Of a stretch of 64,000 nucleotides of DNA, positions 386 through 64,000 are shown one piece after another. A program made the translations under genes and the position numbers. The notes beneath the pieces are model-generated. The model saw nothing but the letters and a program-made list of their open reading frames with translations, did no database searches and was not told the origin of the DNA. Positions within the stretch are counted from its first letter, which is position 1; every line of letters starts with the position of its first letter. Source of the stretch: Trebouxia sp. TZW2008 (taxonomy: Eukaryota; Chlorophyta; Trebouxiophyceae; Trebouxiales; Trebouxiaceae); assembly GCA_002118135.1 (NCBI GenBank), contig BDIU01000414.1:1-64000 (forward strand), written 5' to 3'.

Positions 386-3300
386 TTGTCAGGACAACCT
401 GCAAGCCGTGGCACAGATGGGAGCCATTGTCGTATGGCAGAAGTTCCCATTACCGGCTGTCACTCCCAGGCTGCCGATCACAGACGAGAAAGCGTCCTGC
501 ACGAGGCAGCACTTCTGTCAGGTGCAGTGAGGAGAGGAGCCGTCTTCAGCCAGGGTGCGCTTCAGGATGTTGCAACATGCGTGCTGGGGCCATGCAAGCT
601 GCAGAGCGCTTCCTCAACAATCCTTGCATGCAGAATCAAGGTGTCATCCAGCCAAGACGAGTCAGCAGAGGGGTCAGAAACCTCAGATCAGCTACTGGCC
701 AGCAGCGCAGAGGATGTCAGAGCACGCCGCAGCACCACTGCACGCAACAAGTCTATGGACGTCACTGGCATGCTGCAGCAGTACACAGGCCGTCTGGCCT
801 ACCGCTACTTCAATTGGCGAAAGGACACCTGGAATGACTTGCAGCTGTTTGCCTCCATCAACACAATCCTGCTTTTTGGCGCATCCATTCTCAAGGCTAA
901 AGTGGTTGACCCGCTGGATTCTGAGGCAGACAACTCCATTTCTCCCTTCCAGCACTTCTGGCAAAGCGTGTATGAAGCCCTTGTCGTGGTATTTGGCCAA
1001 GATCTGCCAGATACAACAGCCAGTGTGCTACAGCAGCTGTGGTCTCTGACAGTTGCAGCTGTGGGCCTGGCAGCTTTTGCCCTTGTGCTAGCGCTGGTAG
1101 AGCAGGTTGTCCTGGAAGTGCTAAAGAACAATGTTCAGCGAGGAAGCCAAGTGTACGAGACAGGCCATGTAAGCCCATCATGCATGTCATTTGCGATGCT
1201 TGTGCCCGTTTCATGCTGACTGTGTGTTGTCCGCAAGAACACTCCCAGATCAGCTATGCGTGATGCTTATGCTTCTTCCTTGGCTGCTTTTTGTCATAGT
1301 CAGAAGCAACACATAAAGTTTGCTGTACATCTGCCAATGGACAGGCATAATTGCTTGCATGACAACCGTTTGTGCAATTCAGCTTGAGCTGATGCTGTAA
1401 GGCAACTTGTGCAATCTGCAGCCTTGAAAATGGCCTTGACAATGCTCTGCATTCTTTTGAGGCTTGTAATCTGAGTAAGCATGATTCAAGCAAGTTGCAT
1501 CATGCTCTGTCTGGCTTGCAGATCTTGGTTCTTGGCTTCTGTGACAATCAGCGCGATGAGGAGCTTGTCTGGAAGATCTTGTCTCAGGTGTGTGAAACAT
1601 GTCTGCCATGATGACCCACATATCAGTTCTCCTGATTGAGCCATGTTACAGTCATTGCGCCTTCTCAAGCGGATTCGTTCATTTGCATTGGCACTGTTTC
1701 AGCTCCACAGCATTTGCACTTGTCTGCGCTCTTTCATATCTGATGCATTTGCTATGGCAGATAAGCGCGCATAAACCTTCTTAGCAGCCAATTTGCTAAA
1801 ATGCACCTACACATGTTGCCCTGACCACTCTTCAATGCAGGTTTGTCTAGCATGTTGCAACAACAAAGCTAAGACCTGACTACTTCTGGGTGCAGGTGTG
1901 TCTGGCATATCGCAATGGCGAGGCAAAGGTGGTCGTGGTAATGACTCAACAGCCCAAGTTGGAAATGGAGGCTACATTCAGGCGCATTATTCCTGAAGAG
2001 CAACGGTTTGGCAGCAAGTTTGTGTTCAGACAGGGCTCAGCAATCATTCCAGACAACTTGAGAATGGTGGCAGCTTCACGGGCAGCAGCCACCATCATCG
2101 TCTCTGACTCTTCCAGGTAGATTTGCTTCTTCTTTGATGTTTTCTGTTTGAGTGTGTTTCTTTCTGGGGAAGGCGGGGAGATGTTGTTTGCTTGCAAGCC
2201 AATGTGCAGCGTTTCTGTACTACGCCATCACAATGCCAGCAATGGCCTGCAGGGACGCAGTACAAGCTGATTTCCCATGCAAAGTGAATTCACAACACAT
2301 GCCTGCCAAGCAAACGCAACAAATGCTCAGCCAAAGCACTGGATGAAATGCCTGCTGAAACATCGCAATGAGAATGTTGGTCTGCAGGGGTGCAGTACAA
2401 GCTGATGCTCAAGCGCTGCGTGCAGCCGTGCTGCTGGACGAGCTGGACTTTCCTGGTTTTGGAGTGCCTGACCCTAGGACTGGCCACATTGTGGTAGAGA
2501 TGCGCACGCCTGACTCTGCAGCATTGCTCAAGTACAGCTGCTCTAGCCGTGTGCTGGCGCTGCCTACTGTGCAGCTCAATGCTCGCAGGTGGGTTGATCA
2601 ATATAGACCCTTCCGCAGTAATGCGCATTTCAACGTCTGAGCCCTGCCGAGTGCTGGCCCTGCCTACTTGCACCTCAACGCATGCAAGTGAGTTGGTCAA
2701 AGTAGACTGGTGTAATGCACATCTCAATGTCTGAGCCCTGCCTGTTGTGCAGCTCAAGGCATGCAGGTCAGTTGGCCAATACAGCTCACATTGGCAATTG
2801 AGTGTCTGAGCAGCGTAGGTGTGGCAATAATGCATGCGGCAACTCTTTACAGCTGCACTGTTGCATAGAGCTCGATATAGCTTGGGCTAGAGTCACTTAT
2901 GTCTCATTGTGTGAGTGAGTGTCTGTTGCATGATGCGCTGGGTGACTCAATGTATGCAGCCTAGCATATAGTATATACACTAAAATACTACTCTACTATA
3001 CTGCTCTGCGACAGTGCACAAGCACAAATTGTTGCAGCACAACTGTGACTCTGCAAATTAATTGCAAGCTGCCACTCAGCATATCAGAGAACAATGCAGA
3101 TGCTGCTTTTGCTTGCATGCAGAATCGTGCGCATGGTGACGCATCCTGTCATTGGCGCCATCTCCAACATGCTGTGGAGCTTCAACTCCTCCTCGCAAGG
3201 CTACATCGAAAGCGCGCCTCAGCTTGTGGTGAGTCTTTCCTGCCAAAGTTGCCTGATGGTTTGCATAAGCTTGTATCAGACGACCATGTAATGAACATTG

Positions 3301-62722: not shown

Positions 62723-64000
62723 ATGAGCAGCACAGACTGGAAGGGACGAGTGTCCAAGCTGTACGATCAGATCGCCGGCAGCGTGAGCTCACAGCTGCAC
62801 ATCGCATGCTTGTAAGAATGCATTCAGCAACCTTGGCTGGATCGATGACGTCCTGCGCGACTGCAGGTGACATCGCAGTCAACCATTGTGGTCAGCGCAG
62901 AAGTGAAGGCCGCTCTGCAGCAGCAGCAGCCAGTGGTTGCGCTCGAAAGCACCATCATCAGCCATGGCATGCCATATCCAAAGAACTACCAGACAGCGCT
63001 GGAAGTGGAAGCAGTTGTCAGAGCACACGGAGCAGTACCTGCCACAGTGGCAGTGCTCTCAGGTAGTGCAGCATCACTCTAGTTTCTAGAGTGCCAGACA
63101 GGCCACAACCATGCTCAAGTATGCATCCATGTTCAATGCACAATTCCCAATGCTTTGCGCATTGACTGACTAAGAGTAACATGTTTCTGCATTGCAAGCG
63201 TCAACATCACATGGCATGCGCCATCATCACATGGCTTAAATGATGATGTTGAGATGATCTTGTGCATTTCAAGCACCATCATCACATGGCATACAAAGCA
63301 ATTATAATTGCAGGAGTGCCACATGTGGGTCTGAGTCAAAGCCAAATCCATGACCTGGCAAAGAAAGGCCTGAAAGTGCAGAAGACATCAAGACGAGACC
63401 TGGCATATGTTATGACCAAGAAACTTGATGGTTCCACTACTGTCTCTGCCACAATGGTTCTGGCTGCAAGAGCAGGCATTGCAGTGTTTGTTACAGGAGG
63501 TACGCAGCATGACCATGCCATGATGCATGCTGAAATGTTTGCAGTACTGTTTGTGACAGGAGGTACGCAGCATGGCTGTGCAATGGCACATATGCAGCAT
63601 GAACATGCACCAATGTCAATCCATGCATGGTTGCACTGCTAATATCAGGCATTGTTGTGTTTGTGACAGGAGGTATGCAGCGTGACTATGCCATGGCACA
63701 TATGCAGCACGAATATGCCATGGCACATATACAGCACTACTATGTCGTGACATGTATGCATTGTGACTACGCCACAACAGATGCTTAGAAGCCTCAAGAG
63801 TGCCAAGTGAAACTGCTGCACAAAGTGCTGGAGTGGACACTGTGACTTGCACTCACCACTGCATTGGAGGTAATGTATGGTGCGAATGTGCTGTGATCAC
63901 CGTTGCATGTGCGTAGCATCATGAAAGCTGTTTTCTTGCCAATTAAACAATGCCAAGTGCAAAGTAGCATGCCCAGCGCTAATTGTAAGGTAGCAATCCT
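62723..64000 (+). CDS. Pseudouridine-5'-phosphate glycosidase, 5' part (runs off the window)
   Basis: Splits pseudouridine 5'-phosphate into uracil and ribose 5-phosphate (PsuG/IndA family, PUMY in plants). Exons seen: 62723-62782, 62867-63062, 63314-63499; the phase at the end is 1 and further exons must lie beyond 64000. Motifs: VVALESTIISHGMPYPKN, the start of the catalytic domain; GVPHVGLSQSQIHDLAKKG; KTSRRDLAYVMTKKLDGSTTVSATMVLAARAGIAVFVTGG, which includes the conserved SRRDL and the ribose-phosphate-binding region. The first exon encodes RVSKLYDQI, close to a peroxisomal PTS2 (R-[LIV]-x5-[HQ]-[LA]), although the last position is I. The donor side of exon 3 is copied several times downstream. 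Confidence 0.88.
63480..63775 (+). repeat. Copies of glycosidase exon 3 end and donor
   Basis: GCAGT(G/A)(T/C)TGTTTGT(T/G)ACAGGAGGTACGCAGCATGAC...GCCATG occurs at the functional donor (63499) and again at about 63540-63600 and 63650-63715. A simpler repeat GCCATGGCACATAT(G/A)CAGCAC continues to about 63740. Confidence 0.88.

Follow-up and report, generated by a model that had tools for sequence, protein, structure and literature searches.

The stretch of DNA examined here, 64,000 nucleotides (nt) long and called the window below, is contig C390 of a genome of 68.5 Mb in 527 contigs. Protein similarity places its source among the green algae, within Trebouxia or close to it. Four window exons give a ClpP protein that shares 95% identity with one of Trebouxia sp. 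C0005, its best match with an organism name, and 100% with one further database entry (among the best 120 of 7782 matches); six window pieces give an RNA 3′-phosphate cyclase with 77% identity to a protein of Trebouxia sp. C0004 and to one other (among the best 120 of 495). Besides ClpP and the cyclase, Pfam searches identify a CWF19L1-type gene (RRM above its cut-off, CwfJ_C_1 slightly below it in one scan and above it in another), an acetate transporter (Gpr1_Fun34_YaaH), a thiol dioxygenase (PCO_ADO) and a glycosidase (Indigoidine_A). In four of these genes the end of an exon recurs, as a partial copy, beside the exon itself, and it is these half-exon copies, or decoys, that concern us.

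The borders of 12 window exons were set by splice-site scores, and each exon was searched against its surroundings. Copies of one or both ends accompany seven of the 12 (Table 1): four upstream and two downstream of the cyclase exon 60246–60461, two and one around the cyclase exon 57951–58171, three and two around the thiol dioxygenase exon 55086–55240, two upstream of each of the CWF19L1 exons 19568–19780 and 30803–30963, two and two around the CWF19L1 exon ending at 33755 (whose acceptor is not fixed), and one downstream of the glycosidase exon 63314–63499. No end copies were found for the other five, namely thiol dioxygenase 53954–54076, glycosidase 62867–63118, ClpP 35790–36035, acetate transporter 46183–46457 and cyclase 61646–61929; the score-chosen borders of the glycosidase and ClpP exons in this group gave no open frame, so that their exact positions are uncertain. 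Tandem Repeats Finder lists 33 rows for the window, and the self-comparison that the initial annotation had proposed finds 113 pairs of direct repeats separated by under 3 kb. That annotation had rightly placed acceptor-side copies upstream and donor-side copies downstream, as the window exons bear out, and had seen none in ClpP or the acetate transporter, in agreement with the exons tested. Its list of six affected genes holds for CWF19L1, thiol dioxygenase, cyclase and glycosidase. In a presumed channel gene the tandem repeats reappear in the self-comparison, but the exon borders do not, the Pfam scan of the region scanned (1–9992, plus strand) being without a match; for a SET gene, support comes from a single Pfam match below its cut-off (E 0.008). 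The span it gave, 386–64000, is likewise loose: the copies are real, but some genes and introns are without them.

The clearest array surrounds the cyclase exon 60246–60461, of which nt 1 to about 130 are present four extra times upstream and nt 122–216 twice downstream, the two arrays ending at nearly the same point within the exon. The exon is single-copy, and collinear across both borders, in three Trebouxia proteins and one further protein. All four acceptor-side copies are nearer to the exon of their own genome than to the three related proteins compared (in one example, 33 of 44 residues match the own exon, against 26/44, 26/44 and 22/43 in the three proteins); their origin, or their latest refreshing, therefore postdates the split from those proteins. 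As a separate observation, this exon appears to use a GC donor at 60246.

Table 1. Exons with end copies in the window, their copies, and a dispersed element (positions are those of the window)
Feature	Position	Strand	Support
Cyclase exon of 72 codons with an apparent GC donor after 60246	60246–60461	-	Pfam, exon search
Acceptor-side half-exon copy, exon nt 1–127, 73%	60535–60661	-	exon search; direct in self-comparison
Acceptor-side half-exon copy, exon nt 1–130, 88%	60732–60861	-	exon search, self-comparison
Acceptor-side half-exon copy, exon nt 1–123, 79%	60938–61060	-	exon search, self-comparison
Acceptor-side half-exon copy, exon nt 1–132, 83%	61126–61257	-	exon search, self-comparison
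Donor-side half-exon copy, exon nt 122–216, 78%	60097–60191	-	exon search, self-comparison
Donor-side half-exon copy, exon nt 122–216, 77%	59950–60044	-	exon search, self-comparison
Cyclase insert-domain exon	57951–58171	-	Pfam, exon search
Acceptor-side copy of 57951–58171, exon nt 14–82	58193–58261	-	exon search, self-comparison
Acceptor-side copy of 57951–58171, exon nt 1–107	58335–58441	-	exon search, self-comparison
Donor-side copy of 57951–58171, exon nt 118–221	57774–57877	-	exon search, self-comparison
Thiol dioxygenase (PCO_ADO) exon	55086–55240	+	Pfam, exon search
Acceptor-side copy, exon nt 3–56	54612–54665	+	exon search, self-comparison
Acceptor-side copy, exon nt 1–25	54700–54724	+	exon search only
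Acceptor-side copy, exon nt 1–62	54906–54967	+	exon search, self-comparison
Donor-side copy, exon nt 96–145	55272–55321	+	exon search, self-comparison
Donor-side copy, exon nt 101–155, 91%	55366–55420	+	exon search, self-comparison
CWF19L1-type exon	19568–19780	+	Pfam, exon search
Acceptor-side copy of 19568–19780, exon nt 5–142	19374–19515	+	exon search, self-comparison
Acceptor-side copy of 19568–19780, exon nt 31–95	19267–19331	+	exon search, self-comparison
CWF19L1 CwfJ_C_1 exon	30803–30963	+	Pfam, exon search
Acceptor-side copy, nt 1–159 of 161 (nearly whole exon; homology stops 2 nt before donor)	30571–30729	+	Pfam, exon search, self-comparison
Acceptor-side copy of 30803–30963, exon nt 1–44	30420–30463	+	exon search, self-comparison
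CWF19L1 exon, donor 33755, acceptor not fixed	33435–33755	+	exon search
Two upstream copies (33217–33262, 33317–33399) of exon ending 33755	33217–33399	+	exon search, self-comparison
Donor-side copy of exon ending 33755	33831–33924	+	exon search, self-comparison
Donor-side copy of exon ending 33755	34000–34092	+	exon search, self-comparison
Glycosidase (Indigoidine_A) exon	63314–63499	+	Pfam, exon search
Donor-side copy, exon nt 155–186	63641–63672	+	exon search, self-comparison
Dispersed element, about 180 nt	24189–24360, 32091–32270, 35601–35795, 40230–40412, 54075–54256, 61445–61630	both orientations	

How far does the phenomenon extend beyond the window? Sample genes were chosen from those located with six conserved Pfam families (chaperonin, HSP70, HSP90, tRNA synthetase, aldehyde dehydrogenase and AMP-binding; a seventh was searched and left unused), not all matched genes being taken, and their exon borders were derived from profile coordinates and splice-site scores rather than from RNA. 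The first 20 loci were picked for having several exons within 10 kb, some profile overlaps, such as that of an HSP70 gene on contig C150, being known beforehand. Their 76 introns show a clear consensus, with donor CAG/GTRAGC and acceptor TGCAG/G (the slash marks the border), and 70 of them leave zero slack in the profile coordinate. Of these introns, 64 are 150 nt or longer; the start of the following exon recurs in 10 of them and the end of the preceding exon in 11 (z >4.5), while exon ends compared with the introns of other genes, as a control, gave 0 copies in 126 comparisons. Five loci were added later; from the 99 inferred introns, four with weak splice scores were dropped, and on C269 one pair of exons yielded no junction. 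The full sample, 95 introns in 24 genes, holds 66 repeat events, of which 18 are acceptor-side, 17 donor-side and 31 interior, with periods of 39 to 584 nt (50 of them between 70 and 230). Any event is present in 34 introns, and a junction copy in 27 of the 95 and in 14 of the 24 genes, a proportion slightly favoured by the fact that three of the five later loci (C142, C47b and C193) had already been noticed for overlapping profile coordinates. The genome-wide occurrence that the initial annotation had proposed is thus borne out in the sample, as is its claim of intron lengthening: introns with junction copies have a median length of 648 nt, against 312 nt for those without any event, and, as a rough measure of growth, the periods of the detected events sum to 10,450 nt in 43,445 nt of intron.

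The geometry of the copies is strict. When exons were searched on both strands against their own loci (E up to 1e-4), all 60 copies found outside the window were direct and none inverted; none lay inside an exon or in another assigned intron, and none comprised a whole exon. The 42 copies within assigned introns all lie in the intron adjacent to their exon. Of these, 20 are upstream, 17 of them reaching the exon start (within 6 nt) and none the exon end, and 22 are downstream, 20 reaching the exon end and none the start. The 18 copies beyond assigned introns also lie on the expected side, six of them upstream of a single aldehyde dehydrogenase exon. This is the arrangement predicted by tandem duplication with one whole exon kept, and not by scattered capture; a dispersed capture of exon pieces was accordingly considered and rejected, all copies being direct and adjacent or on the expected side. 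In several arrays (cyclase, CWF19L1 at 33.7 kb and one pair in the HSP70 gene on C150) the spacers between copies align as well, which implies that the units there are contiguous; in others they do not.

Sequence decay suggests that most decoys look like neutral debris still bearing a splice site. Mismatches between exon and decoy fall on the three codon positions as 182/1252, 146/1256 and 313/1238 (0.145, 0.116 and 0.253), close to the 1:1:2 expected of a decoy that is free to change and an exon whose changes are mostly silent. The scattered decoy splice sites proposed earlier do occur, the dinucleotide often being kept among readable copies (AG in 8 of 12, GT in 10 of 11; 18/23 overall, near 0.88 squared). 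The far ends of the copies bear a second splice site in 1/15 and 2/16, not above background (14% and 10%), and, as judged by event shift, splicing at the decoy would preserve the frame and meet no stop in 2 of 35 events. The codon pattern, the far ends and these two of 35 together underlie the view of the decoys as debris. Two ideas suggested by single arrays were discarded: that decoys are complete pseudo-exons (from one cyclase array), given far-end splice sites at background, and that they are under coding constraint (from one HSP70 copy), given a neutral overall pattern. Nor was any new intron seen to arise from the copies, the far ends being at background and the cyclase exon collinear with related proteins.

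What process yields copies of this geometry and direction, spread over many genes, with a neutral codon pattern and at a frequency that matches random placement? The phenomenon is real and widespread in the sample, and it is best read as ordinary short tandem duplication at a density that seems high, judged from this genome. We consider it probable that short tandem duplications fall regardless of splice sites, are filtered by selection and leave half-exon decoys as a neutral residue. Short segments would be duplicated head to tail, at positions independent of splice sites, perhaps through slippage, unequal exchange or the filling-in of staggered breaks. Duplications that disrupt an exon would be lost and those wholly within an intron tolerated. 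Those that span a single exon–intron border would be tolerated too, because normal mRNA can still be made from the copy that adjoins the whole exon, by way of the last acceptor or first donor. Its counterpart would become a half-exon decoy with one splice site, rarely used and drifting neutrally, and repeated events would build arrays and longer introns; this order of events is inferred, as is the rarity of decoy use.

Several observations weigh against this account. Random placement with exon-breaking events removed predicts 21.6 junction events where 35 of 66 were seen (P about 1e-4), and if repeats are detected within introns alone and those between two decoys are added to the junction class, that class holds 13 of 39 against 8.7 expected (P 0.054). 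Mismatches at codon position 2 are slightly fewer than at position 1, and those between two decoys are also more frequent at position 3 (0.232, 0.188 and 0.329), which requires the copying of the decoys to have been spread over time. With the exception of a single 28-nt match, none of the sampled events exceeds 89% identity across its whole alignment, and therefore no fresh breakpoint could be read. Half-exons, moreover, mostly align with few gaps while the spacers of the same units are often gap-rich and more diverged (nine arrays), a contrast that decoy–decoy pairs often repeat. Of 31 junction events 21 could be tested, and in 14 of these the spacers are less similar than in any of 40 neutral simulations. 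The alignment takes in no more than 35 intronic nt in 25 of 35 junction events, compared with 19 to 39% in simulation.

Preservation of the half-exons is perhaps best met by an addition to the tandem-duplication model, namely gene conversion from exon to decoy, templated by the exon, which would keep half-exons similar to their exon and let them outlive their spacers. We regard this supplement as a tentative one, somewhat more apt to be wrong than right. It would fit the greater divergence and gap content of the spacers, between decoys too, and the 1:1:2 codon pattern would also result if decoys were recently copied from the exon and then drifted neutrally. However, faster turnover of insertions and deletions in intron flanks could explain part of the contrast, and some arrays keep the spacer as well as the half-exon (CWF19L1 at 33.7 kb, copies 1 and 2). 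A more far-reaching form appears doubtful: in it, gene conversion from the working exons would repeatedly refresh the decoys of their introns, and selection on splicing would retain the last acceptor or first donor. If it were true, introns would be lengthened by self-propagating arrays fed by their exons, and a large part of the genes would offer natural tests of exon definition against choice among up to seven similar splice sites. The preservation of half-exons and the choice among like splice sites are where the remaining interest lies.

Are exon–intron junctions themselves the target, as the initial annotation had held? A process aimed at junctions, through hot spots such as breaks linked to transcription or splicing, would account for the two junction counts given above, and yet it is unlikely. 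Repeats detected in introns alone, with seven decoy–decoy repeats excluded, include 6 junction events in 32, against 7.0 expected, and when those repeats are counted as interior the figure is 6/39 against 8.7. In a neutral simulation with a conserved exon, which used 49 introns free of repeats, slowed exon positions 1 and 2 to one tenth of neutral and assumed an indel rate and a range of ages, the junction fraction runs from 0.42 (young events only) to 0.52 (ages to 0.5), compared with 0.53 observed. Under the refuting condition that the annotation itself had set, the raw excess is thus explained by detectability, because a conserved exon keeps junction copies recognisable for longer, although the count of 13/39 still points the other way. 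Coverage by intronic repeats is also lower within 300 nt of junctions (0.08–0.19) than in deep interiors (0.30; long introns only). There is no good evidence for junction targeting: with intron-only detection and simulation both near expectation, it is not supported.

Repair-mediated capture of nearby DNA, by synthesis-dependent strand annealing with copies inserted at breaks, is very improbable as an alternative. Captured copies may take either orientation and are not bound to an adjacent position. In a survey of vertebrate repair-mediated duplications, partial exon or intron sequences make up 4 of 824 donor sequences, and both orientations are described for one exon (PMC2671141). The likeness is that short local copies, exon–intron pieces included, may carry splice sites along, and some of the algal units do have non-aligning spacers; unlike those vertebrate cases, the algal copies are all direct (0/60 inverted), all on the expected side and none in another assigned intron, and where spacers align the units are contiguous.

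Could selection instead be maintaining the half-exons, as functional alternative exons or as regulated poison sites? Some have open frames (HSP70 on C150), many splice dinucleotides are kept, and one HSP70 decoy differs at 2.5% of positions 1–2 and at 31% of positions 3. That same decoy has small insertions, however, one of the four acceptor-side cyclase copies holds a stop, and the overall codon pattern, the far ends and the scarcity of stop-free in-frame use all speak for neutrality, so that we give selection on the half-exons very little credence. Tandem copies are a familiar assembly hazard, but an artefact is highly unlikely here: differences of about 5 to 30%, with neutral-looking patterns, separate most of the copies, some of which also have indels, decoys are farther from one another than from the exon, and the arrays occur on many contigs.

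Elements of the tandem-duplication model have precedents. Internal gene duplication giving intragenic copies of exon plus intron sequence was reportedly described by Gao and Lynch in 2009, and Vaughn and Bennetzen are said to have found, in 2014, short, direct tandem duplications from staggered breaks in rice genes. In the potato RdRp gene, a tandem genomic duplication over an intron–exon border made a new intron (PMC4974935); the algal events resemble it in being direct tandem duplications over an acceptor border with splice signals copied, and differ in showing no intron gain and an excess of half-exons, with 27 of 95 introns affected. Intron gain has also been attributed to tandem duplication of exon pieces containing AGGT (PMC3443670); there too, local tandem duplication gives spare splice sites, but in that model an exon interior is duplicated and an intron created, while in the alga an existing intron grows. 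Half-exon arrays as a genome-wide feature, and such arrays in Trebouxia, are undescribed in the titles and abstract openings that searches of the open literature brought up, a weak negative, since most subscription papers fall outside it. The arrays offer a countable, transposon-free route to longer introns; with like splice sites beside one working exon in ordinary genes, they could be used, given RNA data, to probe site choice, and programs that predict exons may be misled by the decoys in genomes of this kind.

Apart from the half-exon arrays, the window holds an element of about 180 nt dispersed in both orientations (Table 1), which looks like a small non-autonomous DNA transposon, given the 24-nt terminal inverted repeats of the copy at 40230 and apparent TA flanks in some copies. 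Used as queries, the six copies find nine matching places within the window and 16 across 202 kb of gene loci, several of the matches being partial. Three copies start within about 5 nt of a splice donor (54076/54077, 35790/35789 and, in gene orientation, 4972 in an intron of locus L035), and the donor beside them reads GTACAG together with the element end, the ends of the window queries having been set by hand. These could be tolerated insertions at the TA of a donor, or the element could have an introner-like role; no paper in the open literature searched pairs "introner" with "Trebouxia".

Apparently within a CWF19L1 intron, 24900–27450 carries at least 11 copies of a unit of 172–175 nt, which finds one weak match in the remaining window. 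A genome search with a piece of a tandem-repeat consensus gave no match, probably because a consensus may differ from every exact sequence, and Rfam and tRNA scans found nothing. A 39-nt repeat at 50949–51029 (97% matches) lies within a minus-strand open frame as a coding repeat that keeps the frame. Next to the presumed channel gene and on the opposite strand, 13016–14104 (minus) is an intronless open frame that reads as F-box/LRR-like and is 94% identical to one database entry and 52% to a protein of Trebouxia sp. C0006.

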